Part shown: in pieces, positions 736-14,302 of the stretch | How positions within the stretch are numbered: position 1 is the first letter of the stretch | How the letters are laid out: the number at the start of each line of letters is the position of its first letter | Assembly (NCBI GenBank): GCA_036939355.1 | Contig: JALLAP010000638.1 | Span: forward strand, 1 to 14,302 | Direction of reading: 5' to 3' | DNA: 14,302 bases | Origin: Thalassiosira profunda | Taxonomy: Eukaryota; Bacillariophyta; Thalassiosirophyceae; Thalassiosirales; Thalassiosiraceae | Position numbers and translations under genes: made by a program | Notes under the pieces: model-generated | Seen by the model: the letters and a program-made list of their open reading frames with translations, nothing else | Told to the model about the DNA's origin: nothing | Database searches by the model: none

Positions 736-975
736 TAGCCCCCCACCGCACCTTTCACTTTCACTTTCACACCTTCCTCCCAGCTTCCTCCCCTACCCCC
801 CGCGGCCCGCCCCAGTACACCGAACCGCTCTAGCATTATGATTGCCTCCTCTACCACCTGCTGACAGTGGCCGCAGCGTTGGCGCTGTGCAGTGCAAATC
901 GAGCAGTAACGTCCCGGCACGGTCGGTGCATGTTGACGGTGCACCCACCAGTCATCACCCTTCAGACACCTAACA
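736..975 (+). promoter_or_regulatory. Probable promoter and 5' leader of the SPX-EXS gene
   Basis: This 240-bp stretch lies between the MITE-like element and the ATG at 976. It is pyrimidine-rich, with a threefold ctttca tandem at about 751-768 and long C/T runs to about 815. I find no TATA box or phosphate-response motif I would defend. The start context is taacaATGgtc. The MITE-like element ends about 240 bp upstream of the start codon, so it could affect expression; that is inference. Confidence 0.35.
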
Positions 976-3925
976 ATGGTCGAGTTCGGGCTGAAATTGG
1001 AGGACAACAAGGTCGACCAGTGGGCGGACCAATACATCGACTACGAGAAGCTCAAAGCGATCCTGAAGCGGGCCAAGGCGGCCGTGGAGTATCGCGATGA
1101 CATCACCAACCGCATGCCCCCCGGGGCGGTCGCCGAGGTGGTCCAGGAGCGGAACGATCGGAGGGCCACCTCCTCGTCGCTGGGGAACAAGATCGCAACT
1201 CAGGGTGAAGTGACGCCCAAGGGGTTGGTCGCGCCCGCGGAGAACCCACCTCCGGGCGACGAACAGTACGAGCCGTTGAAAATGGGCCGGCAACCGCTCG
1301 AGGTGACAACGGACAGGCAGAGCACCCACTCCCTCCCCGCTACCGCCGGGGAGGCCACCGACACCACGCCGCTTTTGATGCACGAATCCCGCCCCCTGAA
1401 GCGGGGGAACAGCTGGAGCAGCAACTTTGGCGAGAACGTCAAGAAGGTCGCGTCCTACCTAGGACTGGCCGACGATCGGGCGCTCCTCCTGCACGCGTAC
1501 NGGCGAGAACGTCAAGAAGGTCGCGTCCTACCTAGGACTGGCCGACGATCGGGCGCTCCTCCTGCACGCGTACGACGACGCCGATGACAAGCTCAATTTG
1601 TTCAAGCAAACGTACGAGATGGAGGTGCGCAAGGTGAAGGACTTTTACCAGCAAAAGACGAACGAGATCTCGCAGCGGATGGAGGTCCTCGTGGAAAGCG
1701 TCGACACGTCGGGGTTGGACATCAACAAGCGACATCAACAGCCCGCGGGGGGCATCGTGGACGCCATGACGCAGAAGTTTGAGGGTCTCTTGCAGGGCCT
1801 CCGTCCCGGGCGGCGGGAGAGCGTGTCCCACGATGCCGCGGGCGGCCATCCCTCGCTGGACGTCAAGCACTCCGAATCCCTCGACGACGATTACGACGAC
1901 ATCGAACGCATCCTCCGCGGCGAGGCCTCGGCGGAGAAGCGGCGGGAGAAGGAGGAGCTGGCGCGGAAGCTCGATTCGATCAAGCGCGCGATCACGGACA
2001 TCTATCGGACGGCAAAATTGCTGCACAACTACTCGATCATGAACTACACCGGCTTCGTCAAGATTGCGAAGAAGTTCGACAAGACGTTCCCGGACCACAA
2101 GGGCATTTTCAAGGGGAACAACTGCGACGACGGGAAGCAGGCCGAGGTCCTGGCGGCCAAACTGGAGGACATTTACTCCCGCTGGTTCTGCGACGGAGAC
2201 GCGCGAGAGGCCCAGGCGCAAATGCTGCCCAAGCGGAACGACGGGCTGCTGATGGATTGGACGCAGCTCCGCCTCGGCTACCGGCTGGGAATGTGCAGCA
2301 TCTTGGCCATGTGGGTGGCGTGGGACTGCGTATGGGGCCAAGTGTCGAAGGGGGAGGTGTCCATTGGCGGACGTTCGGCCTTCCCGGTCTTCCGGGCCTG
2401 TTTTGGACTGCTGACGTGGCATTGGTTTTGGGGCGTGGCCGTCTATGTCTGGACGCGGTACAGGATCAACTACATTTATCTCTTTGTGAGTTCTCACTGG
2501 ACTGCAGTCTTTGCAGTTCCGCCTCGCCCGTGACTCACTTTCCTTCTGTTTAGGAGTTCGACCCTCGGATTGTTGACACGCCATTGGATATCTTCAATGA
2601 TGCAGTGGACGAGACTCTGGTGTTCCTCATTTGCATGCTGATGTACTACAAGGTGAGCGGTGAAGAATTACGATGCGCTTTGCCGTTGATGACTTTGACT
2701 CACAGCACCTGGATCTCAAACGCAAAAGTCGGACGCGGGAGACATGCCCCTGTGGATACCACCGCGCATTTATCCCTTTGGCCTCATCCTCTACACTGTC
2801 AAGTGCCTCATATTTCCGTGGAAACAGCGGAGGCCGATGTGGTCCGCCATCCGGCAGGTCATCCTGGCCCCATTTGTATCGCCGACATTTTTCTTAACAT
2901 ACGTGGGCGACGTCTTCACATCCATGATCAAAGTGTTTCAAGACATCCTGTGGACAGTGTGCTTTGTGATATACGGCGACTTCTTGCTTACGGAATCTGA
3001 ACACGAGTCTAGCCATCATCATGTCCATTCATGGAGTCAGGCGTTTTGGTACAAAAATGTCGCAATTCCGCTGGTATGTCTGATGCCGCTCTGGATTCGG
3101 TTCAACCAATGCCTTCGGCGATATTTTGATACGGGGCAGCGGATGCCCAACCTTGCCAATGCATTCAAATACGCAATGTCGCAATCAGTGACTCTCTTTG
3201 GCGCGTTTCATCCGGTAAGCAAGTGTGTGTCATCTTACTATGTGTATTGCTTTTCTCTGACCCCTTTCTCTTTGCAGCTGTACTTGATGCACAACAATCG
3301 TGATCAGCGCACTGTCTCGTTATCTGACGATGACGACGACAGCGACGAGGTTGGATCCATTGTCATCGGGGGATACCGATCGAACATATTCCAGATTTTT
3401 TGGATGGGACTCTTCGTCGCATCGTCGCTCTACAGCTTTTGTTGGGATGTGTATATGGATTGGGGCCTGGGAAGACGAGAATACGGGTTCTTGGGACCGC
3501 GGTTGATGTTTCCAAAACGATCGCAGTACTACACAGTCATTTGCGCTGATCTGGTTTTGAGGTTCATGTGGGTCCTGACGCTCATCCCGCCGCAATCAGG
3601 GGCAAAGTTCGAGCTGCCGGCTTATCTGTCTGCAATATCAATGACCGTGGAGCTATTTCGTAGAACGATTTGGAGCTTCTTTCGTCTAGAGCACGAGCAT
3701 CGGCAAAACACCTCGGGGTTCCGACGAGTCAACGTCGTTCCGCTCCACTTCAACACTGGGCACAAGCACAAGTATCACGAGCGACACTGGGTAGGATGGA
3801 AGGTGCTGGTAGAGATTGTGGCTGTCACTTCTGTCGTGGTTGCGATCAGTGCCGTCAGCGTGATTGTGGCCCAGCGGGCAACGCACAACTATCAAATGGC
3901 AGACCCGAATAACGACGATCTATGA
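976..3925 (+). CDS. SPX-EXS domain phosphate exporter (PHO1/XPR1 family)
   Basis: Likely a membrane phosphate exporter whose cytosolic SPX domain senses inositol pyrophosphates. Exons by my reading are 976-1500, 1574-2485, 2554-2652, 2729-3214 and 3278-3925, giving about 889 aa. The SPX domain opens with MVEFGLKLE and YIDYEKLK (residues 20-27) and its lysine patch KIAKKFDK is at about 338-345; a long low-complexity insert separates these parts. The EXS part has several membrane segments and the family signature RRTIWSFFRLEHEH near the C-terminus. It is longer than human XPR1 (696 aa), mainly through the SPX insert. The exon coordinates skip 1501-1573: an N followed by an exact repeat of the previous 72 bases. 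Removing these 73 bases restores one frame through the SPX domain, so I treat them as an assembly error. The gene converges on the minus-strand fusion gene with a 38-nt gap. Confidence 0.93.
1429..1573 (+). repeat. 72-bp direct repeat flanking a single N (probable assembly artefact)
   Basis: Positions 1429-1500 and 1502-1573 are identical over 72 bases and separated by the only N seen in the window (1501). The unit lies inside the SPX domain, and the 73-bp surplus shifts the frame by one. Deleting one unit plus the N reconnects residues ending LLHAY to DDADDKLNLF. This is what two overlapping contigs joined with a one-base gap would look like. Confidence 0.92.
2486..2553 (+). other. Intron 1 of the SPX-EXS gene (68 nt)
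   Basis: The donor is GTGAGT at 2486 and the acceptor is ctgtttAG at 2553, phase 0. Splicing joins NYIYLF to EFDPR, matching the family pattern of an aromatic/leucine run followed by E/L-DPR. The unspliced frame soon meets a stop. Confidence 0.9.
2653..2728 (+). other. Intron 2 of the SPX-EXS gene (76 nt)
   Basis: The donor is GTGAGC at 2653. The only nearby acceptor that keeps phase is AG at 2727-2728 (gcaaaAG); the stronger-looking cacAG at 2704-2705 is out of phase. The junction reads MYYK|SDAGDMPLW. The acceptor choice is less certain than for the other introns. Confidence 0.75.
3215..3277 (+). other. Intron 3 of the SPX-EXS gene (63 nt)
   Basis: The donor is GTAAGC at 3215; the acceptor follows a long pyrimidine tract (ctctttgcAG, 3277). 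The length is a multiple of three with no in-frame stop, so a naive translation reads through and adds 21 residues. The spliced junction FGAFHP|LYLMHNN, the strong splice signals and the family fit favour an intron. Confidence 0.85.
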
Positions 3926-3963
3926 GACGATCAAGATCTAGAGGATTTAAGAGGCTTGGATGT

Positions 3964-6641
3964 TTATTTTCCAGTTGCGTCCTTGAACGTTGCAGTTGAA
4001 GCCATCTTTGCTGCACGAGAGCCCTCGTGCTGGATGAATGACTCGAACTTTGAAGGCAGATCTATCCGAGCTCTCACCATTACAGTGCCTTTATCTTCCC
4101 ATACCAACGCGTCGCGATCCCCTCGCTCTGCTTCCCACTCTTGCCGTCCAGATGGTGTATTGTAGTATGGGTGCTCCAGTTCAATCTCATTGGAACACAG
4201 AAACAGGCCGCGACCTCGCAAACGCAACGCAGCCTCGTCTGCGCCGTCGTACGTCGAGTCGCCCACCAAAGGGGTGCCACACACCCAAGCCTGCAGATGC
4301 CCTGCGGTGAGTAACAGAAGGAAAGTATACAATGAGAAGATGTAGCACATCGCAAGCTCACCATGTGCCTCCGCAGTTGATGGTACCGTCCAGTCAGTGG
4401 CTTCAACTCAACCAACGCCAAGGTGTTGTTTTTTGCATGGAGTGATCTCACTTCACGCAGCACCTTCCATTTCGTTATGGCTGTCTTTTCCTCCAAGTCG
4501 TGGTCAATGACATTCCACTCATCGGGGGATAGTTCGCCACATTGTTGTTCCGGGCACCCGTTAACAATCGCTGTGTAGGTCTTCCTCACTTTGCGATGCT
4601 CAAACTGCTGTGACAAATGTACCGCCGCTGCTTTTGTCTTGGCCACGACCACCAGCCCAGACGTCGGCCTATCCAATCGATGCACCGGCTGCGGGCGTCG
4701 AAGTGGGATATTTGGATCGTCATCGCCACCATCGTCGCTTCCAACGGAGATATTGGACGGCGTCAGCACGTAGGGCAAGGCAGAAAGCAACGTGTCCCGA
4801 CCGTGTCCCCCGCCACGGGCGCCGCTGCCTCGGCCGCCCTCTGACTCTGACCGATACACCACCACGCCCGCGGGTTTGTTCACCACGGCCATGTGATCAT
4901 CCTCATACACAACGGGCAGGTCGAACGGAGGAGGGCGGTAGGGCACGCCTTCCTCTGCGTAGTAGTCTGCACCCGCTCGTTTTTGGAAGCCCACAATGTC
5001 CCCTGGATAGATTCGGCTGATCACTCTGCCCAATTCATTGAAGCCTGCATTTCTATTGCGGCAGATGCAGATGGAGCGTTGTCGTATTACCTTGCGAGCG
5101 CGAGACTGCGTCAGGTACTGTTCTGGATCGAGTAGCATCAGGGCTGCCGGAAGAGTTACATTCCGGGACGTCAGCCGCAACCTTTTGATATCTTCCGGGG
5201 AAAATATTGATGAGAGCGACGTCGCATTGCCCTCGCCGTTGATCGTTGTTTCTGGGAATCCCTCGAGAGGAACGGTATATTGCTGGACGACCACGTATCC
5301 ATCGCCCGTGCCATTTACGACATCCATTGGAGCAGGTGGCTCGTCCTCTTCATCTTCAAGGATGTGTGTAATCACATCCTCATCTGCATTCTCGTCTGGC
5401 AGCGAAAATGCATCAGACGACCGGCTCTCCGAAGACGAGCAAGGAAATTCAGTCTCAAAGGCCTGCAGCTCGTCAAACCCTACCACTTGTTTGACAGTTG
5501 CAAAATCCGCCATTGTTGCGCCATTGCCAATGATGCCGGTGGCTTCACGGTCCGAGCCATCAAGAAAATCCTTTGCAGCCGACTCGAGCGCGCCAACACA
5601 GACCTGAAGCGGGGTCACACCAAACAAGGCCAGATCGTAGCCCAAAGCTCCGATCTCCTCCACAGATAAAAGTGGCTTGGAATTGGTGTCGGCTGCGTCA
5701 GTTGGCGCTGTTGTCTCCTGTACCTGCGCAATCACTGTCACTGTGCGCGGATCCAACCGCTCTCTCAGCTGCCGATATTCTTCTCGACTTTGTAGGTTCT
5801 CCCCGTATATTATCTCTGCCCCTAGCTCTTCGAAGCGCAGGCACCGCTCCAACACTTCTTGGAATCCGTGTGACATTCGGCAGTCTGTCCTTGCCACAAT
5901 CCAAGGCCCCGCTCCAGAGTTTTCGACGAATGAGCTCTGCGATTGCACGTATTGGTCTCTCGCTCCCAAAGCCCCTCGTACCCTCTCGATTGCATCCTCC
6001 CGATTTACAATTTGTATGCTCGACCCGGCGGCAATGGCGCACCGCTTCGGAAAGGTTTGATCTTCAATAGATACGGCCGCTACTCCGGCATTTCCCAGAG
6101 CGGAGATCGTGCGCAGCATATTCGGCGCGCCTCCGTAGCCGGTATCTCCGTCGCAAATGATTGGCGGCGGGCACTGCCGACCGTTCACCACTACACTTCG
6201 ACAGTCTGGGCTAATTTGTACAATCGAGCAGATATTCCGTGCCATCATCTCCATCTCGACCAGATTCGTCATTCCAGCGTCCGGCAAGCCGAGCAGAGAT
6301 GCCGATACACCGAATCCGCTAACAAAGAGTGCGGGTGCACCGTGTTGGGCAAATATCTTGCCCGAGAGTGCGTCGTGGACGCCAGCAAGTGGTATGCTTT
6401 TGCAATTGTTCGTCTTGCATAATCGATTTTGCAGTATGAGGTGATAGAGGGAATGTGATGGCGACGTTGGCGGAGGCTCTGGCATCGCCATCACATCGTT
6501 ATGTGTCGACGACGAGAGGGAAAATCGCCGCCGCATGCATGATGTGGATACATCGGCAAATGACGAGACGAACGCCACGCAAATTAACAGGACCACTGAA
6601 GGCAAGAGCCTCCTTCTGCGCTGACGGGCCACAGGTTGCAT
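3964..6641 (-). CDS. Fusion: isocitrate lyase/PEP-mutase domain + S4 + RluA pseudouridine synthase, probably plastid-targeted
   Basis: Exons (minus) are 6641-4362 and 4290-3964, giving about 868 aa. Residues 1-27 form a basic, hydrophobic signal peptide ending VSS, followed by FADVSTS, an ASAFAP-like site that suggests plastid import. Residues about 66-390 are an isocitrate lyase/PEP-mutase fold: SGFGVSASLLGLPD, the metal-binding DGDTGYGG (164-171), IEDQ, and KRCA (199-202) where most relatives have KKCG/KRCGH. An acidic linker (about 400-485) leads to an S4 RNA-binding domain (about 490-555, ending YPGDIV). An RluA-type synthase follows, with HRLDRPTSG (catalytic Asp657) and HMAWVCGTPLVGDSTY across the splice junction. 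RluA enzymes convert uridine to pseudouridine, so a plastid rRNA or tRNA target is likely. The substrate of the lyase part cannot be told from sequence. The reading frame is continuous from lyase through S4, so the fusion is not a gap artefact. Confidence 0.88.
4291..4361 (-). other. Intron of the lyase-RluA fusion gene (71 nt)
   Basis: On the minus strand the donor is GTGAGC (starting at 4361) and the acceptor is catctgCAG (ending at 4291), phase 0. The junction gives LRRHM|AWVCGTPLVGD, which matches the RluA family motif. An earlier acceptor (ending at 4302) would put the downstream exon in the wrong frame. Without splicing, the frame reads on into non-RluA sequence. Confidence 0.88.
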
Positions 6642-6805
6642 GGCGGCTCGAGAGGAGTTGTGGGTCGCCAGCCAGGGAGGCCCCTCGCTCCTTGCTTTCC
6701 TCCTCTACGAGTGATGTGTTACTAATTCCTACGTTGATCTGGAGAAAGGCGCAACACCCCCTGCCACGCGACGCCACCTTCAGGCACTGCTGAGCTATCG
6801 ACGCC
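6642..6805. promoter_or_regulatory. Divergent promoter region between two plastid-targeted genes
   Basis: Only 164 bp separate the ATG of the lyase-RluA fusion (minus) from the ATG of the small ASAFAP protein (plus). Both products carry complex-plastid targeting signals, so shared control is plausible. I see C/T-rich tracts but no element I can name. Confidence 0.4.
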
Positions 6806-7239
6806 ATGAAACGGACCACAACCGTCGCGCTGCTATCCGCCGCCGGCGTCTTCGTCGGCGTGCTTGCCGCCCGGCCTTTCGCATTCGCCTTCGCTCCGAC
6901 AGTGCCGCACCAAGTGAAAGTGGGAATCCCATCAAAGGCACATGTGGCTGATGCAATGGCGGGAGACTTTGCCGCACTCGATAACCCGCTCGTCGAGACG
7001 GATGGGGCGATTGTTCCGGCGCGAAAGTGTGCTGTTTGCATTGGAGTGAGTGCATAACATCAACATTTGAAGTGTGGCTTGCGGTATCCTGGGGTATCCT
7101 GATGCTTCTCGCTGGACACACTCATATTTGCTCCTCTCACTTTGCTTTGTTCTTGACGCCACTCAATTCTACGACTGTATCTGCAATGGTTCAGTGATCC
7201 AAGTTCGACTACCCGTTTTGCCCGGTGGGTGGCGTGTAG
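6806..7239 (+). CDS. Small plastid-targeted protein of unknown function
   Basis: The N-terminus is a signal peptide (KRTTTVALLSAAGVFVGVL) followed by AFAFAP (residues 26-31), a near-perfect ASAFAP cleavage motif, so import into a complex plastid is well supported. The mature part is short and I do not recognise it; it contains KCAVCIG. Read straight through, the frame ends at 7057 (83 aa), but a perfect GTGAGT donor sits 12 bases before that stop. If it is spliced from 7046 to AG at 7203, the protein ends CIG|FDYPFCPVGGV at 7239 (about 91 aa), adding a third cysteine. No AG suitable as an acceptor lies nearer, so the intron would be 158 nt, longer than the others here. A TTGCAAT motif starts 11 nt after the 7239 stop, as at other genes in the window, which favours the spliced form. 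The gene diverges from the fusion gene. Confidence 0.6.
7046..7203 (+). other. Candidate intron in the small plastid protein gene
   Basis: The donor GTGAGT at 7046 matches the donors seen elsewhere in the window. The next usable in-phase acceptor is ccaAG at 7203; tcAG at 7194 would place a stop codon at once. A pyrimidine-rich stretch (about 7129-7155) lies upstream. The length of 158 nt is unusual here, so the call is tentative. Confidence 0.45.
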
Positions 7240-7680
7240 AGGAGTTGCCTTGCAATGGAGACGAATCTGCTATTTGATGTAGCAAAGCAAAAACGAGAGA
7301 ATACAAACCGAACAGTGCCTGAACGACTTTGCAATCAGAATGAATCTTGCACTTTCGGTACGGGTGATCATGTGCCTATTGTATCTGGGGAGAACGCAAC
7401 ATCCATCCACTGATCAGATTGATTGGAGTTGCAATGTCTTCCGTGATGAAGCTTGCATGGCGCATTTGGACAAAGAAACACGAGATATTGATCTCATCTG
7501 AGGTTCATATGCCGAGAAAGCAATCGCAACGGATAATAGGTTAGCAATTGCAATCCTCTTCCTGCTCTGAAGGCTTGGCGCTCTCCCCTCTTCCCTCTGT
7601 TTGCCATCTTTGGTTGCAATCATTTCTACTCGCTGTGGCATCCTTAGCGATTTGATCATGTAGAAGATGCCGACGATATC
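7240..7680. other. Intergenic region rich in TTGCAAT motifs
   Basis: No coding sequence or RNA gene is visible. The region lies between the 3' end of the small plastid gene and the 3' end of the minus-strand ankyrin fragment. It contains five TTGCAA(T) motifs, at 7250, 7329, 7429, 7548 and 7614, where about 0.1 is expected for a given hexamer in 440 bp. It probably holds the 3' untranslated ends of the flanking units. Confidence 0.5.
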
Positions 7681-7845
7681 TCACAGCTCCTGTTCTTCCG
7701 GACTGGCATATCGCATTGCGCCATTTTTCACCAGTATGCTCCTCGTTTTCATGAACCGCTCCTTTTCCTCCTCCTCGTCCAAGCTGAGCAGTATTTGCTC
7801 CACCGCATCCAGCGCCGTTCCCGGCTTGGCCTCCCCGCTCTCCGC
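7681..7845 (-). pseudogene. Truncated inverted copy of the ankyrin gene's last coding part
   Basis: On the minus strand this encodes AESGEAKPGTALDAVEQ through to ASPEEQEL and a stop, about 54 residues. It matches the C-terminal end of the plus-strand ankyrin gene at 8440-8604 without gaps: about 148 of 165 bases, and 46 of 54 residues with conservative changes. Similarity stops at the stop codon on one side and before the ankyrin repeats on the other. No repeats, start codon or convincing splice acceptor lie upstream on the minus strand, where the sequence becomes the promoter region of the plus-strand gene. I read it as a partial inverted duplication, probably non-functional. Confidence 0.75.
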
Positions 7846-8036
7846 GTTTGTGCTTGCACCTTGCCTCACCTTTTGAGGAGAGCGAGCGGTGTGAAGGACA
7901 GACTGCTTCAATTCTGACCACCCACCCCTCCTCCCTCCCCGTCCGCCGGCTCCCAGCGCCCCACTCTCACTCCGCCTCCGCCATCCGCAGCTGCGACAGG
8001 CCCCACCGCCTTCGGCAATAACGTGGGCAGGCCAGC
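7846..8036 (+). promoter_or_regulatory. Spacer and probable promoter of the ankyrin gene
   Basis: These 191 bases separate the inverted ankyrin fragment from the ATG at 8037. They include a long C/T-rich tract (about 7920-7980) like that ahead of the SPX-EXS gene. No specific element is recognised. Confidence 0.3.
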
Positions 8037-8604
8037 ATGAACGGCGCATCTGCCTTCTTGCTGCGCGCAATATTGCTGCTGCTTCGGCTTGCCGCCGCCG
8101 CCGCGAACCCAGACGACGACCAACCAAACGCCGACTTCTTCCATGCGTGCTCCGGCGGGGAGCTCGCCAGGTCCAAACCCTCGTGAAGCAGGATCCCTCG
8201 CTGGTGCACGCCACAACCAAGGACGGCGAACATTGTTTACATCTCTGCGCCATCAGCGGCAACTCTGAAATAGTCAAGTTGCTGTTGGAAAAGGGAGCCA
8301 ACCCGACATACGCTCGACGTGGGAGCAGGGCCTTCGCATGCATCCCTTGAGCTGGAACGCGTTTTACGGACGATACGACAACATTGAGCTCCTTTTGAAA
8401 CACGGGGCCGACGTTAATGCCGACTTTGATATTGGAAAGGCGGAAAGCGGGGAGGCCAAGCCGGGAACGGCGCTGGAGGCGGTGGAACAAATACTGCTCA
8501 GCTTGGACGACGAGGAGGAAAAGGACCGGTTCATGCAAACGAGAAACGTGCTGGTGAAGAATGGGGCAATGCGATACGCTGGCCCGGAAGAACCGGAGCT
8601 GTGA
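8037..8604 (+). pseudogene. Ankyrin-repeat protein with signal peptide, two frameshifts
   Basis: The start at 8037 gives a signal peptide (MNGASAFLLRAILLLLRLAA) and then a region reading FFHACSGGELA. The frame is lost at 8169-8170 and resumes one base short as VQTLVKQDPSLVHATTKDGE, with the first ankyrin repeat (HCLHLCAISGNSEIVKLLLE). It is lost again at about 8306-8308 and resumes as IRSTWEQGLRMHPLSWNAFY and a second repeat (DNIELLLKHGADVNADFD). The C-terminal part runs to a stop at 8604. Each break equals one missing base; the three pieces together make about 190 aa of one family. Ankyrin repeats bind proteins; the partner is unknown. There is no Phe after the signal peptide, so a secretory location is more likely than plastid. 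Either this is a young pseudogene or the sequence carries two one-base errors; neighbouring genes read cleanly. Confidence 0.78.
8440..8604 (+). repeat. Right arm of a 165-bp imperfect inverted repeat
   Basis: This is the last coding part of the ankyrin gene. It pairs with 7681-7845 in inverted orientation at about 90% identity without gaps. The arms are separated by 594 bp. Both end exactly at the stop codon. Confidence 0.85.
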
Positions 8605-8927
8605 CATTTTGGTACAATGCAAAGGCTCGATCAAAAGGTACCACATACCGAATCAGAGGCACAAAGATGTTGTGTTGAAGAGATATGATAGGAGAGAGTT
8701 GCACACCAAGCAGTGTTGTGGTCCGAATCACCTTTCCGCTAAGAGCATTACGGGGCAATCCTCTTGCATTTGCTTTGTGGGTGGGCCGCTCCTCCTGAGG
8801 GAAGGCCTCCACCCGCCCTGCCTCCTCCGGATGCGGAGAAGGCTCGGCAGTCACGCCTCGGCAGTCACGCGTGACTTCACAGTTACCCGCTCCGCCGCTC
8901 CCCCGCGCGCCCATCAACTTGCCCAAC
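8605..8927 (+). promoter_or_regulatory. Intergenic region and probable thiolase promoter
   Basis: There is no gene in these 323 bases. A 14-bp unit ctcggcagtcacgc is tandemly doubled (8843-8856 and 8857-8870). The second copy runs into the 12-bp perfect palindrome gtcacgcgtgac (8864-8875), about 53 nt ahead of the thiolase ATG. The same 10-bp core lies in the GNAT/p24 promoter region. Confidence 0.5.
8865..8874. promoter_or_regulatory. Palindrome TCACGCGTGA upstream of thiolase
   Basis: A perfect 10-bp palindrome (12 bp counting the flanking g and c), 53 nt before the thiolase start codon. It contains ACGCGT. The same 10-mer recurs at 11081-11090 between two divergent genes. A dimeric transcription factor site is a reasonable guess. 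Confidence 0.4.
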
Positions 8928-10154
8928 ATGGCGCCTCCTCCCCACCCGCGCGACGCCGTCATCGTGCAGGCAGTCCGGACCCCCCTCTGCCGCGCGCGGA
9001 AGGGCGGACTGGCCGAGCTTCCGCCGTCGGCCCTCCTCTCCGCAGTTTTGCACGGGGTGTTGCTCAAGCACCCGCAGCAGGCGACGGCCACCGCTGGGAG
9101 GGATGAGTATCTCATACCACCGGACGCGGTGCAGGACGTCTGCGTCGGCAACGTGCTGTCTCCCCCCACCGCCGCGGTGGCCTTTCGCATGGCAGCGCTG
9201 TCGGCGGGCCTCCCGCACACGACGTCGCTCTCGACGGTGAACCGCCAGTGCTCGTCCGGACTGCAGGCGATCGCCAATATCGCCCACGCCATCCGGTGCG
9301 GATCCATCGACGTGGGCATCGGCGCCGGCGTGGAGAGCATGAGCGCCAATCCGATGCACAAGCTGTACGAGAATCATCCCCCGGAGGTGGATTGGGACGC
9401 CATGCAGAATTGCAGCAACGCAAAGGAGGTGATGGATTGCTTGGTTCCGATGGGCAAAACGTCCGAGAACGTCTCGAAGAAGTACGGGCTGGATCGCCGG
9501 ACGCTGGACGAGCTCGCGGCCCGATCGCACCAAAAGGCGGCGAGGGCACAAGCGACCGGAAAGTTTATATCGGAGATTGTGCCCGTGGGCGACGTCGATC
9601 GGGACGACGGCATCCGCCCCTCCACCACCGCGGACAAGCTGGCCAAGTTGAAGCCAGTGTTCGACAAGAACGGATCTACGACCGCGGGAAATTCGAGCCA
9701 GCTGACCGACGGAGCGGCGGCGGTGTTGCTCATGAGCCGAGAAGAAGCGATGAGGCGACGGTTGCCCATCATGGGATGCTGGAAGTCGTACGCCGTTGAG
9801 GGAGTGCCGCCGCGGATCATGGGCGTCGGACCGGTATTTGCAATTCCCTCGGCCCTCGCCAAGGCCTCCCTGTCGACCGACGACATCGACGTGTACGAGA
9901 TCAACGAGGCGTTCGCCTCCCAGGCGCACTATTCCATCGAAACGCTGCGGTTGGATCCGGACAAGGTCAACCCGAACGGGGGCGCGATCGCGCTGGGGCA
10001 TCCGCTGGGTTGCACCGGCGCGAGATTGGTGGTTTCGCTGCTGAACGAGATGAGGAGGGAAAGAAAACGAACGGGGGTCGTGAGCATGTGCATCGGGACG
10101 GGGATGGGAGCGGCGGCGGTGTTGGAAGTGGACGGTATGAGATCTGCTCTTTGA
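8928..10154 (+). CDS. 3-ketoacyl-CoA thiolase (acetyl-CoA acyltransferase)
   Basis: Catalyses the last step of fatty-acid beta-oxidation: thiolytic cleavage of 3-ketoacyl-CoA to acetyl-CoA and a shortened acyl-CoA. The 408-aa product is full length for the family. It carries the nucleophile Cys108 in NRQCSSGLQA, NEAFA (326-330), His358 in GHPLGCTGAR and Cys388 in CIGTGMGAAAVLE, so all catalytic residues are present. It resembles the peroxisomal type. The ATG at 8928 (context caacATGgcg) is preferred; the open frame extends back to a GTG at 8871, but that stretch overlaps the promoter palindrome. There is no PTS2-like nonapeptide (R/K-L-x5-H/Q-L) at the N-terminus; the C-terminus is SAL, a weak PTS1 resemblance. 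Location is therefore peroxisomal by family, not proven. No intron is seen. It converges on the GNAT gene with a 37-nt gap. Confidence 0.95.
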   Translation: MAPPPHPRDAVIVQAVRTPLCRARKGGLAELPPSALLSAVLHGVLLKHPQQATATAGRDEYLIPPDAVQDVCVGNVLSPPTAAVAFRMAALSAGLPHTTSLSTVNRQCSSGLQAIANIAHAIRCGSIDVGIGAGVESMSANPMHKLYENHPPEVDWDAMQNCSNAKEVMDCLVPMGKTSENVSKKYGLDRRTLDELAARSHQKAARAQATGKFISEIVPVGDVDRDDGIRPSTTADKLAKLKPVFDKNGSTTAGNSSQLTDGAAAVLLMSREEAMRRRLPIMGCWKSYAVEGVPPRIMGVGPVFAIPSALAKASLSTDDIDVYEINEAFASQAHYSIETLRLDPDKVNPNGGAIALGHPLGCTGARLVVSLLNEMRRERKRTGVVSMCIGTGMGAAAVLEVDGMRSAL

Positions 10155-10191
10155 TTCAGTTGCAATTGCGAAGCAGCAGCATAATTGCAAC
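10155..10191. terminator. Shared 37-nt 3' region of two convergent genes with paired TTGCAAT motifs
   Basis: The thiolase stop (10154) and the GNAT stop (10192) face each other. TTGCAAT starts 5 nt after the thiolase stop on plus (10160-10166), and another starts 1 nt after the GNAT stop on minus (10190-10184). No AATAAA is present between the genes. A role in 3'-end formation is inference from position. Confidence 0.4.
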
Positions 10192-11043
10192 TCAGTTCTT
10201 AGCTACCGCTTGATGATGATGTGCCTCATCATTTGTGTCTCTTATCAATCTCTTTCGGAGCAGGTAGTGAGGCCTCGATTCTGCTCTCCTTCTTCTCGAG
10301 ACTGTCGTGTTCCTCATTTGCAAATCTCCCGATTCTGCAACCACATTGTCGTATCCGCTCGCCTGAAAGAAGGACAGTGCATTTTGATTGTCTGGCTCGA
10401 CATCTACGAATAGGATTTGATCGTCCCACACTTCGGTCGCAATTTGCTCGCATCTCCGAACGAGCGATTGCCCGACCCCTCTACTTCTGTGCGTCGATTT
10501 GACGCAGAGAACTCCCAGCAGGGGCTGCGGTCTCAATCCGGTTTCGTTTGTTGTTGATGTGCCAGGCTCACTGAGATCAGTATCCTCCAGAGAAACCGGG
10601 CAGAGCGACATGCCCATCTCAACCATACCCACCACTTCGTCAGCATTCTTGCTGCCATCACTGCCGGGATCGCTCTCCTTCGCGACGAGGAGGATGTGTT
10701 TCTTTCCCCTCATTTTCCTCGCCGTCGAGACGAGGCGTTTGTAGGTGAACTCCTCTGTGAGAGATCGCTCGACCCAGTTCCAATTCCACGCTTCTATTTT
10801 CGACGATGTTGTAGTGGCTGGTGCATCGAACGTGGCCGCGACGAGCGACGCCACATTTCGATACTCATTGGCCGACGAAGGAGGCGAGATCGATATGAGC
10901 GCGCATACCTCATGCGCGCACACGGACACCAACAACAACGGCGCCGATAGGCGCACCGCCGATAGGCGCACCACCGATAGGCGATGGAGCCTCATCGAAC
11001 CCCTTTTGTGGTGCGCCTGGCGATACATCCTCGGCATCGTCAT
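10192..11043 (-). CDS. GNAT-family N-acetyltransferase with N-terminal signal sequence
   Basis: A 283-aa protein with an acetyl-CoA-binding GNAT core: LLGVLCVKSTHRSRGVGQSL carries the R/Q-x-x-G-x-G/A motif, followed by FVDVEPDNQNALSFFQASGY, typical of the last strands and helix. It should transfer an acetyl group from acetyl-CoA to an amine; the substrate is unknown. The N-terminus is hydrophobic and signal-like (APLLLVSVCAHEVCA) with no clear Phe at the cleavage site, so ER or plastid entry cannot be decided. Met17 is an alternative start that gives a more typical signal peptide. Just after it the gene holds three 15-bp tandem units encoding RLSVV/RLSAV/RLSAP. It diverges from the p24 gene and converges on thiolase. 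Confidence 0.85.
   Translation of the reverse strand: MTMPRMYRQAHHKRGSMRLHRLSVVRLSAVRLSAPLLLVSVCAHEVCALISISPPSSANEYRNVASLVAATFDAPATTTSSKIEAWNWNWVERSLTEEFTYKRLVSTARKMRGKKHILLVAKESDPGSDGSKNADEVVGMVEMGMSLCPVSLEDTDLSEPGTSTTNETGLRPQPLLGVLCVKSTHRSRGVGQSLVRRCEQIATEVWDDQILFVDVEPDNQNALSFFQASGYDNVVAESGDLQMRNTTVSRRRRAESRPHYLLRKRLIRDTNDEAHHHQAVAKN
10943..10987 (-). repeat. 15-bp tandem repeat, three copies, in the GNAT signal region
   Basis: On plus the units are gccgataggcgcacc (10943-10957), the same again (10958-10972) and accgataggcgatgg (10973-10987). On minus they encode repeated (V/A)RLS just before the hydrophobic core. The unit is five codons, so copy-number change keeps the frame. Confidence 0.85.
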
Positions 11044-11285
11044 CGTCAGCGGCTTCTTCTTTGGTCGTCACGAGCAAACATCACGCGTGATGGATAAATC
11101 ACGTCCCGTCATTTCAACTTTGAACTTTGCGAGTTGCGAGGTGTTGGCCGGCCGGACGCGCCACGCCGCTGGGGCTGCCTCCGCTCCTCCTTTCGCGACC
11201 GATGCGCTGTACTCGTCGCCCAGCGCGCCGCCCTTGTGGCCGCCAGTGCGGTGGAGCCGATACCGTCGACCAATATCAATTTGAG
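11044..11285. promoter_or_regulatory. Divergent promoter region between GNAT and p24 genes
   Basis: The 242-bp gap between two divergent start codons holds the 14-bp perfect palindrome catcacgcgtgatg (11079-11092), 35 nt from the GNAT start. Its core TCACGCGTGA equals that upstream of thiolase. The rest has open frames on both strands but nothing protein-like. Confidence 0.5.
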
Positions 11286-12512
11286 ATGACACATGATATG
11301 AGCACCCTGAAATTTACATCAGCCACCCGATGCGGGCGAAGCCCGTTGCAGTTGAGCCTGCTCGCCTTCCTCCTGGCCCTCTCAATAACAATACAACCCG
11401 CGCTCTCGGTCCATCATCCCCTGATGCTCAAACTGGACGCGCGCGAGAACCAGTGCATATATGAGCGCTTCGAGCGGGGAGACTTTGCCACCTTCGAGAT
11501 ATTCATCGTCGAGGCCGAGGAAGGGGGGACGCCGCACGCCGGCGTGCAGATCGAAGGGCCGGTGATCAGCCCGAAAGTCGGCCAGCTGGACGGGGAGGGG
11601 AATCGATCGTGGGAGCCGCCCAAGGCGAAGGAAGGGGAGGATGAGGAGGGAGAGGAGAAAAAGAAGAAACGACGGACCAACAGCATGGGCGCAGCAATGC
11701 AAGATGGCGTGGAAGAATGGCCGAATTTCGTGAACAAGATGCACAAGCATTTCACCGATGCGGGGATCATCTTCCACTCCTACTTCATCGATTATACGCA
11801 TTCGGGGGAGAGCGAGGATGCCGTCGCCGCACGGGCAGATTGGACGCGCAAACAGAACGAGGAGGAGGAGGCGCTGAAGCGACGAAAGATGTACGATCAA
11901 AAGACGAAGGGGGAGGGGGGATACACGGGCGACGAGGACGTCGAGAAGGAGGTTTACGAGGAGGCAGGATCGAGGATACAACATATCATACCGGAGTGGA
12001 TCGAGCCGTACGAGTGGACGAAGCCAATCAAGGCCGCGGGGTGGTATCGGATGTGCGTCACGGCCGACGATTCCATCACGGTCGAGTTGGACATCCGATC
12101 CTCGGCGGATCTGGGGGGCATCGATCCCGACACCGGCCACGTGTTCACGCACGACGAGCGGGAGTTCATCGACGAGGAAGCGCGCATAATGGGAGAACAG
12201 GCAAAGACCGAGGAGGCGCGAAAGGCCGCGGAGGAACTGGAGCGGGCGCTGCAGGGCCAGGTGAAGGATTTCCACCTCGAGACGACGCGCAAATTGATGG
12301 CCGAGGTGAATCGGCTCGTGGCCGATATGCAAAAGCGGCAAACAGCCGTGCACCATCGAATCAAGAGCCACGAGAGCGATGCCCGGAGGAACCGCAGGAG
12401 AATTTCCCAGAATGGGAAAATCGTGTCGGTGCTCGTGGTGGCGATCACAGTGCTCCAGATGTACACCGTGCGGAAGTGGCTATTGTCGCGAACGACGCTG
12501 GGGCTGGCGTGA
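11286..12512 (+). CDS. p24/emp24 family protein (GOLD domain) with a large insert
   Basis: p24 proteins are type I membrane cargo receptors cycling between ER and Golgi. The 408-aa product shows a signal peptide (about 19-42), the start of a GOLD domain (HPLMLKLDARENQCIYERF), its later strands (AAGWYRMCVTADDSITVELDI), a coiled-coil region (about 300-370) and a C-terminal membrane helix (about 379-398). Cys57 and Cys257 match the conserved GOLD disulfide pair. Usual family length is about 200-230 aa; here about 150 residues are inserted between the GOLD halves, including an acidic/lysine run (about 116-130) and WPNFVNKMHKHF. The cytosolic tail YTVRKWLLSRTTLGLA lacks the usual KKxx retrieval ending. 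The start could be the ATG at 11286 or 11298. TTGCAATGGAG begins 7 nt after the stop. Confidence 0.88.
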   Translation: MTHDMSTLKFTSATRCGRSPLQLSLLAFLLALSITIQPALSVHHPLMLKLDARENQCIYERFERGDFATFEIFIVEAEEGGTPHAGVQIEGPVISPKVGQLDGEGNRSWEPPKAKEGEDEEGEEKKKKRRTNSMGAAMQDGVEEWPNFVNKMHKHFTDAGIIFHSYFIDYTHSGESEDAVAARADWTRKQNEEEEALKRRKMYDQKTKGEGGYTGDEDVEKEVYEEAGSRIQHIIPEWIEPYEWTKPIKAAGWYRMCVTADDSITVELDIRSSADLGGIDPDTGHVFTHDEREFIDEEARIMGEQAKTEEARKAAEELERALQGQVKDFHLETTRKLMAEVNRLVADMQKRQTAVHHRIKSHESDARRNRRRISQNGKIVSVLVVAITVLQMYTVRKWLLSRTTLGLA

Positions 12513-13101
12513 GAACGGTTTGCAATGGAGGGTCAACTCTTGGCCTCCCACTCAAAAAGAATACAAATCAAGTTGTTGCGCTTCTGTCGTTCCTAAGTTA
12601 CTGGCTCGTGGCGAAATGTGAATGCCTTGTCCACGCTACCGTTGCCGCCTCCCATTTCTGTCGCGGCAGCTGCCAGTCATTCCTCCTCGCTCGCCCGCGA
12701 TCCTTCCTGGGAGCTCTGTTGCTGGCGACGATCCACCCACTTTTCTTGCACGCGCCTCCGGACACGTCGAACGCCTCGAATGGCCAAAATGAACATGATA
12801 GACTCTTCGCTTTGTTGTTTGTGATTGTATTGAGGTGCTGTTTCTTTGCTTGTGTTGAGATTTATGAGCCAACCAGAGTTGGCGGCATCATTTGGTGGGA
12901 TCAGTGCTCACATCTTGGCATCGAATGCATGCAGGCAAGGTCTCGCCAACCGAGCGTCTTGCTCGCTCTTGCACACCAAGGTGCGTAGGTACGTACCTCC
13001 GTCCGATAACGCGGCTCGCCCAGCCACTGATGAGCCGTGGCATCACCGACACCCACACTGCGGCGAGAGAGGGCGCTTCGCCTCTGCGGCCACACAACGA
13101 G
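12513..13101. other. Intergenic region between p24 and JmjC genes
   Basis: These 589 bases contain no convincing gene on either strand. The first part is probably the p24 3' end, with TTGCAATGGAG at 12520-12530, an 11-mer also seen at 7250-7260. The last part should include the JmjC promoter. A 12-bp perfect palindrome aggtacgtacct lies at 12987-12998, about 103 nt before the ATG at 13102. The JmjC frame stays open upstream to about 12868, so ATGs at 12925 or 13030 remain possible starts. Confidence 0.45.
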
Positions 13102-14302
13102 ATGTCCGATACCACGACGGCGTTTGCGTCAATTGCGGCCTCGCCGTTCGAGCTCGGCATCGGCGGCGAAGGTGAAGGTGGCGGGGCAGATTGCAAAGGT
13201 GGAAACGGCGACAGCCACGTCCGTCGGTTCTTTCGAGACGTGTGGCAAAAACAGCCTGCAATCTACCGCACCGCATCGGAGAAACGTGGCCCATCAATCC
13301 TAAGCATGGGATGCGACGACGTCGCAGATCTGTTGCATCACTTGCGCGAGCATGCCGATATCCCCGGAGCGTCGCGGCCCATGTTTTTTAGAAGTGGCAC
13401 ACCCATCATCGATCCCGACGCGCTCTACGCGAGCAATCCACACGCGGCGTACCTCGATGGGTGCTCGGTGGTGATCAACCACGCCGATTTTCACCACGCT
13501 TCGTTGGCCAGAATGTGCGACGAGCTGCAGCAAACGTTTCCTCACGTGTACTGCAATACATATTTAACACCTCCCGCCTCGAGCGCGGTCAAAGCCCACG
13601 CGGACGACAGGGATGTTTTGGTTATGCAACTTATTGGTAAAAAGAGGTGGAGGGTATACAAACGCGTGCCAGTTCCATTTCCATTTGATCAAGAACAAGT
13701 GGGCAAATACGGCAATGTGGTGGATGCATCGGTCCTCGAGGGAGGGCTGTGCTTCGGAGACAAGGAAGTGACCTTGCATCCCGGAGATGTGCTTTACATG
13801 CCGAGGGGATTCGTGCACGAGGCCACAACGAACGAATTGTCTCGGCACGAGCCATCCTTTCACGCCACATTTGCAATTGCCACGCATGATTGGTGTGCGT
13901 CAGCTGTCGTCGCGGAGACGATCCAAAACATGCTGCAATCGGAGCCAAAGTATAGGGTGGCCTTGCCTGTGGGTCCGTGCAGAGATTACGAGGAATGCAT
14001 GGACGAACGTAGCTCGCTCAAATCTTGCGTGGAGGGAGCCCTGTCTGCAATCCAAAGCAATATTACGTCGGAGATCATTGAGCAACGGTTACGAGCCAAG
14101 TATCGAATTCACAATCAGCACGCAGAGTCGATCCGAGGTCGATTGCAAGACGGTGCCACGTCCAGGAAGAGAAAGGCCGACGACGACCAATCGTCACCAG
14201 TTGTGGGAAAGGATGCAGCCGCGAGGTTGGGCTTGCAAAGCATCATCAGAGTCAGCACGCCGGAAGAGAGGGAGAGCGTGCAGATGGAGGAGGGAAGATT
14301 GC
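13102..14302 (+). CDS. JmjC/cupin oxygenase, ribosomal-oxygenase-like, truncated by window edge
   Basis: An Fe(II)/2-oxoglutarate-dependent oxygenase of the MINA/NO66/YcfD type, enzymes that hydroxylate ribosomal proteins or act on histones. The frame is open for 400 codons to the last base, so the 3' end is missing. It opens with RRFFRDVWQKQPAIYR (41-56), typical of the family's N-terminus. The double-stranded beta-helix carries H166-x-D168 (KAHADDRDVLVMQLIGKKRW) and the distal iron ligand His239 (MPRGFVHEATT), so the metal site is complete. A basic SRKRKADDD stretch (about 354-362) could be a nuclear localisation signal. The start at 13102 is chosen because the sequence becomes protein-like soon after; earlier in-frame ATGs exist at 12925 and 13030. 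The substrate cannot be told. Confidence 0.88.
   Translation, partial: MSDTTTAFASIAASPFELGIGGEGEGGGADCKGGNGDSHVRRFFRDVWQKQPAIYRTASEKRGPSILSMGCDDVADLLHHLREHADIPGASRPMFFRSGTPIIDPDALYASNPHAAYLDGCSVVINHADFHHASLARMCDELQQTFPHVYCNTYLTPPASSAVKAHADDRDVLVMQLIGKKRWRVYKRVPVPFPFDQEQVGKYGNVVDASVLEGGLCFGDKEVTLHPGDVLYMPRGFVHEATTNELSRHEPSFHATFAIATHDWCASAVVAETIQNMLQSEPKYRVALPVGPCRDYEECMDERSSLKSCVEGALSAIQSNITSEIIEQRLRAKYRIHNQHAESIRGRLQDGATSRKRKADDDQSSPVVGKDAAARLGLQSIIRVSTPEERESVQMEEGRL

Follow-up and report, generated by a model that had tools for sequence, protein, structure and literature searches.

What brings a metabolic enzyme fold and an RNA-modifying enzyme together in a single gene, behind a plastid signal? 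The question is posed by the minus-strand gene at 3964..6641 of the stretch analyzed here, 14,302 nucleotides of Thalassiosira profunda DNA that we call the window. Judging from sequence comparisons, the best explanation (with a rough probability of 0.72) is that two nuclear genes became joined in a lineage-specific manner within Thalassiosira-type diatoms, giving a product that would be imported into the plastid and whose halves would each be active on their own. Two known kinds of enzyme are thereby combined in a new way, within one set of related sequences. A first-pass annotation of the locus treated the architecture as one not known to be described, and we likewise came across no account of this order of domains in the open-licence literature searched; one study lists pseudouridine synthases among genes that may be of chlamydial origin, but not this fusion (PMC2490706). 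A fusion hints that two proteins are partners, and the related diatoms in which the genes are separate make it possible to date and test this one.

The gene encodes 868 amino acids in two exons. Exon 1 (4362..6641, minus strand, as for all features of the gene below) runs for 760 codons without a stop through the lyase, the linker, an S4-like segment, and much of the synthase; exon 2 (3964..4290) supplies the synthase end and a C-terminal tail. Assuming independent bases of the same composition, an open frame of 760 codons has a chance of about 1e-14, and over the same stretch the remaining two frames of that strand hold 30 and 26 stops. The single 71-nt intron (4291..4361; GTGAGC...CTGCAG) joins RRHM to AWVC, and is supported by a second copy of the gene on contig C432 of the same assembly, in which an intron of the same length at the same place carries in-frame stops. 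In order, the domains are a presequence, an isocitrate lyase/PEP mutase barrel, a disordered acidic linker, the S4-like segment, and an RluA-type pseudouridine synthase. Translation and Pfam confirm the uninterrupted frame noted at first pass: PEP_mutase matches at residues 84-359 (E 2e-26; 93.5 bits against a curated cut-off of 31.5) and PseudoU_synth_2 at residues 583-761 (E 6e-29; 101.7 bits against 26.8).

An obvious concern is that an error of assembly or gene modeling has joined two neighboring genes. Some features of the window invite it. Over 75 codons (residues 406-480; 5175..5395), dS between the window gene and the C432 copy is about 0.04, compared with about 0.4 in the flanks; given this near-identity between flanks that are about 88% identical, the letters of the linker stretch may be gene-converted or an assembly chimera. 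Joining also appears imperfect elsewhere in the window, where a 72-base repeat surrounds an N at 1501 and an inverted repeat lies at 7678-7849/8436-8607. Nonetheless, exon 1 crosses both domains without a stop, such that no gene-model join is needed, and the segment holding the gene (3834-7844) is colinear with C432. The same join recurs in the C432 copy, in other sequences, and in a separate T. profunda assembly, where ACHAXT_004901 (P0001), on a 2.0 Mb contig, matches with 99% identity over 100% of the query and has slightly different letters in the 5175-5395 stretch, yet the same fusion. We thus reject assembly as the source of the fusion, on the strength of the separate assembly, the diverged second copy, and the other sequences, and consider an artefact of either kind extremely improbable. 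The first-pass annotation had also raised the prospect that assembly error would leave the fusion absent from close relatives; the same join is present in P0001-P0005 and C432. The placement of both domains behind an N-terminal signal was borne out in the separate assembly and in other sequences.

The fused forms are diverged enough to inform on selection. The C432 copy shares 88% DNA identity over 1.5 kb and 90% protein identity with the window gene, and dN/dS between the two is 0.111 for the lyase (330 codons) and 0.150 for the S4-like segment plus synthase (352 codons), which shows purifying selection on both halves at the level of codon comparison. Duplicate copies are unsurprising in T. 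profunda: PMC12159174 reports 26% BUSCO duplication, although the species is estimated to be diploid, and puts another assembly at 58 Mb. A protein search for further fusions, which scored the 7994 candidates sharing most words (candidate lengths at least about 477 amino acids), identified two full-length fusions that are 58% identical to the window protein, P0002 (853 amino acids) and P0003 (834 amino acids), and two partial ones, P0004 and P0005, in which the lyase continues into the S4/synthase part and whose ends, as we read them, resemble intron read-through.

Other Thalassiosirales encode the two enzymes separately. Among the synthase matches listed (120 of 374), unfused proteins of 476-616 amino acids occur in Stephanodiscus triporus, T. 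exigua, Skeletonema menzelii, Conticribra weissflogii, and Cyclotella cryptica, as well as in MMETSP transcript sets. Among the lyase matches listed, unfused proteins occur in T. exigua, Thalassiosira sp. AJA248-18, S. menzelii, S. dohrnii, Mediolabrus comicus, and Stephanocyclus meneghinianus. T. exigua and Skeletonema therefore have both parts as separate proteins. These unfused orthologues (for instance synthases P0013-P0036 and lyases P0130-P0159) have the same domains and motifs as the fusion. In two of them, P0035 and P0036, an intron at the place of the fusion intron has apparently been translated along with the exons. Split proteins in relatives had been proposed at first pass as grounds for refuting the fusion, and they do exist in several named Thalassiosirales; the fusion is nevertheless real, and their existence marks it as lineage-specific rather than false. 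It is not general among diatoms and, as far as these comparisons reach, looks like a local evolutionary event. In the partial assembly that holds the window (21.8 Mb, 1366 contigs) we found no separate orthologue of either half, an absence that is not proof given 21.8 Mb against 58 Mb. The only other PEP_mutase-type gene found there, on C890 (L007, about 780-1799, minus strand), is a distant, intron-split paralogue with a canonical KRCGH loop.

The junction itself is the same in all seven fused sequences (window, C432, and P0001-P0005), which helps to favor a single origin. Of the 40 unfused Thalassiosirales-type lyases chosen for the lyase tree, all but one terminate no more than 7 residues from the FPC (or equivalent) at which the fusion linker starts; the exception, P0165, is cut short. 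Unfused synthases have their own N-terminal extension; in the fusion its place is taken by the acidic linker alone. Phylogeny is less decisive. An initial tree rooted on distant paralogues left the backbone open. In the lyase tree (56 rows) the seven fused sequences form one clade with support of 66/85, not starred, and in the synthase tree (33 rows) six fused sequences fall in two groups, requiring a minimum of 2 changes. Holding these six together costs 0.95 log units and is not rejected (p-AU 0.3). A single origin is the simpler reading of these sequences, and a weakly supported one.

The fusion protein probably goes to the chloroplast, according to hydropathy and our own rule of thumb for cleavage sites. 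Its presequence (residues 1-50; 6492..6641) has a hydrophobic core followed by VSS|FADV, an ASAFAP-like junction with Phe at +1, and is mostly of low confidence in the structure model. Counterpart sites are VAS|FSLP in P0002 and AAS|FALP in P0003. A Phe +1 site is found at the lyase N terminus in five of the six fused sequences examined, the exception being P0005, whose signal is weaker and lacks the Phe. By the same rule, cleavage ahead of Phe is possible in 7 of 14 unfused lyases, compared with 10.3% of shuffled N termini, and in 12 of 19 unfused synthases, compared with 17.5%. On the best reading, two plastid-directed enzymes have been fused, probably into a bifunctional protein. Head to head with the fusion gene, and with 164 bp between the two start codons, lies a small plus-strand open reading frame (6806-7057) with a classical heterokont plastid motif, FAFAFAP; it has no Pfam match and may extend beyond an intron.

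If both enzymes are destined for the plastid, must they remain joined once there? The linker (residues 402-445; 5307..5438) was delineated by pLDDT, which falls below 50 at residues 401-438 and 443-445 of the P0001 model, and by composition: in the window protein, the 40 residues ahead of NGT include 14 D+E and a single K+R. A cut polyprotein is the main rival to a lasting fusion, albeit an unlikely one. On this account, the halves are translated jointly and imported on one signal, before a plastid protease cuts the acidic linker to release two mature enzymes. A disordered, acidic linker would suit such cleavage, and because several relatives make the two halves as separate proteins, nothing demands that they stay joined. 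Linker length is similar in all seven fused sequences (33-40 residues, each linker acidic), a regularity compatible with either reading. A start codon for a separate synthase is not conserved in the linker, since P0001, P0004, and P0005 have no Met ahead of the NG[ST] motif. Internal initiation is possible in view of a Met in the linkers of the window protein, C432, P0002, and P0003, and of one Met in P0005 that follows NG[ST] but precedes the S4 core.

Another rival, in line with the first-pass idea of a domain linking carbon metabolism to plastid RNA modification, is functional coupling: either the lyase would control pseudouridylation by sensing or channeling a plastid metabolite, or the synthase would tie lyase activity to ribosome assembly. 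For such a link, the fusion itself is the one piece of support. Retention of the linkage in sequences only 58% identical, with both halves under purifying selection in two diverged copies, is what coupling would predict, but several related diatoms manage without the linkage and we found no support in the open-licence literature searched. The structure model likewise has two confident domains with a disordered linker between them and a pTM of 0.54, such that no fixed arrangement of the two is predicted. Coupling accordingly strikes us as quite improbable. Instead, a linker that is disordered and relatives in which the enzymes are separate both point to simple tethering of two activities.

The lyase half bears most directly on whether both activities persist. 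The isocitrate lyase/PEP mutase-type barrel (residues 57-401; 5439..6473) has the fold of known members of this superfamily, to which PrpB, dimethylmalate lyase, oxaloacetate acetylhydrolase, and petal death protein also belong. The letters of its metal-site motif, DGDTGYGG (residues 164-171; 6129..6152), and of its active-site loop, KRCA (residues 199-202; 6036..6047), agree with the first reading. By our own position mapping, the acidic residues of the Mg site are present as D121, D164, D166, and E193, with roles taken from PMC7609661 and PMC11982470. The former attributes the chemistry of isocitrate lyase to the corresponding Asp, Cys, and Arg, the correspondence again being ours. Eight residues—Asp121, Asp164, Asp166, Glu193, Lys199, Cys201, Arg251, and Glu281—are retained by every one of 114 diatom-type sequences (109 of at least 300 amino acids, from the 118 of the lyase search, plus the window, C432, P0002, P0003, and P0005). 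The same eight occur without exception in 78 of 78 bacterial sequences, which were retrieved by patterns including DGDTG[FY]GG and so have the DxD by construction. From these comparisons, the metal-dependent core is likely intact.

What has changed is the loop and the pocket. The loop of bacterial relatives reads KKCGH or KRCGH in 78 of 80 sequences (the best 80 of 497 prokaryotic matches; two were unread), and PMC11982470 names KRCGH as the canonical PrpB motif. We tallied the loop in 126 diatom-type proteins, comprising 118 from the lyase search (among the 120 of 1286 matches listed) and P0001-P0008; these are close relatives only, many of them metagenomic, and the named ones are diatoms. 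The loop is K.C[T/A] in all 126, fused or unfused, and GH follows the Cys in none, a pattern match accounting for 122 and a separate reading for the other four, all K[KR]CT. The Ala form seen in the window protein is a minority (3 of the 126 among the matches listed), and even the C432 copy has KRCT. The residue after the Thr or Ala is Tyr, Ile, Phe, or Val in the diatom-type sequences, giving K.C[T/A][I/Y/F/V] where bacteria have K[KR]CGH. Beyond the loop, diatom-type Phe106, Ser108, Thr/Ala202, and Cys254 stand against bacterial Tyr, Thr, Gly, and Ala, and Tyr279, Leu283, Ala305, and Gly341 against Phe, Pro, Asn, and Pro, each in at least 90% of sequences. Phe replaces Tyr at 106 in 112 of the 114, and Tyr279, Leu283, and Gly341 are present in 112-114. 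A pocket Asn is replaced by Ala or Gln at 305-306, where the register is off by one residue between two comparisons.

These patterns separate the loop change from the fusion. The first-pass annotation had taken KRCA as a possible sign that the fused lyase had changed substrate or become a binding domain. The KRCT loop of the C432 copy, and the K.C[T/A] shared by fused and unfused relatives alike, instead show that the change predates the fusion and is widespread among diatoms, and we reject the fusion as its cause. It is not common to all algal members of the superfamily, as the loop is KRCGH in the C890 paralogue and KSCGH in P0009, from a green alga. With the metal-site and catalytic residues kept but the loop and pocket changed, the idea of a changed substrate survives without its link to fusion: as far as sequence can tell, the substrate probably differs from that of bacterial relatives in diatoms generally, and did so before any fusion. 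Curated models agree in placing the fusion lyase outside the named families, its scores being far under the cut-offs of every named NCBIfam equivalog matched (for instance 132.3 against 354.4 bits for prpB, methylisocitrate lyase, and 27.9 against 275.9 for isocitrate lyase). Many database records nonetheless label the diatom family methylisocitrate lyase-like or carboxyvinyl-carboxyphosphonate phosphorylmutase, and we found no mention of carboxyphosphonate phosphorylmutase together with a diatom in the open-licence literature searched. An isocitrate lyase-like family with a loop and pocket unlike those of the bacterial relatives examined, but with the metal site and catalytic Cys kept, is in our judgment the part of this work most worth testing.

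The same residues weigh on whether the lyase half has become a noncatalytic scaffold or binding domain. The replacement of loop GH by Thr or Ala plus Tyr, Ile, Phe, or Val, the Tyr-to-Phe change at 106, and the loss of the pocket Asn would all fit such a role. Set against them, all eight catalytic and metal residues are kept in every diatom-type sequence, unfused versions are kept as separate genes, and dN/dS is 0.11. The binding domain suggested at first pass is thus disfavored by this dN/dS and by the retention of the metal ligands together with the Cys, Arg, and Glu, and we regard a scaffold as improbable.

The synthase half has similarly kept its core motif. The RluA-type domain extends from residue 583 onward (3964..4895, interrupted by the intron) and includes HRLDR (residues 654-658; 4668..4682), in which Asp657 is presumably the catalytic residue; the H, R, and D of HRLD are invariant in 37 of 37 orthologues. 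Compared with RluA, RluC, and RluD, which act on 23S rRNA and tRNA, it has N- and C-terminal extensions and falls under every curated NCBIfam cut-off: TIGR00005 (rluA_subfam) requires 192.7 bits, and scores are 109 for exon 1 only and 127.1 for the whole of the unfused orthologue P0013. The S4 assignment made at first pass is only partly upheld. The segment (about residues 480-560; 4962..5204) is too diverged for Pfam, which found no S4 match in any of the 37 orthologues, but a structure comparison supports an S4-like RNA-binding fold, as the P0013 model matches full-length RluD (2ist), with the alignment starting at chain residue 6. In one synthase relative, the 705-residue P0041 of Cylindrotheca closterium, the S4-like segment apparently occurs twice in tandem.

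Taken together, a plausible route to the present gene can be proposed. A lyase gene would have lost its stop codon and become joined, via an acidic stretch, to an S4-RluA pseudouridine synthase, which would have lost its own presequence in the process. One mRNA would then yield one polypeptide, imported into the plastid by a single N-terminal bipartite signal. There, the lyase half may act as a Mg-dependent C-C lyase on a putative oxo- or hydroxy-acid, and the synthase half on plastid rRNA or tRNA. Fusion would fix the stoichiometry of the two enzymes and co-deliver them. As PrpB, of the same superfamily, is a tetramer according to PMC11982470, the fusion could even hang four synthases on one lyase core. 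A bolder extension, which we consider a long shot, envisages a probably tetrameric lyase core with a rewired active site and tethered synthases, in which the lyase would be a new diatom-wide activity and an organic-acid reaction would be linked to plastid RNA pseudouridylation in a physical and perhaps also an allosteric way.

The surroundings of the gene offer several minor observations. Across 3303-12967, comparison with L011 revealed five pieces (about 8.2 kb) that match C432 at 85-95%. The part that includes the fusion gene (3303-7844) is opposite to C432 throughout; 7970-8607, 8915-10953, and 11832-12967 lie in the same order as in C432, with each piece turned around. The turned pieces are either small inversions between diverged copies or joining errors. 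The inverted repeat (7678-7849/8436-8607; 172 bases, 89% identical) is not a repeat in L011 and holds the end of an open reading frame that we take to be ankyrin-like, which has no Pfam match. At 1429-1573, the same 72 bases flank the sole undetermined base (1501), within the SPX-EXS gene, probably as two overlapping contig ends joined by an N. Pfam identifies the remaining neighbors, besides this SPX-EXS protein (976-3925), as a thiolase (8871-10154), a GNAT acetyltransferase (10192-11043, minus strand), an emp24/p24 protein (11127-12512), and a JmjC protein (12892-14301).
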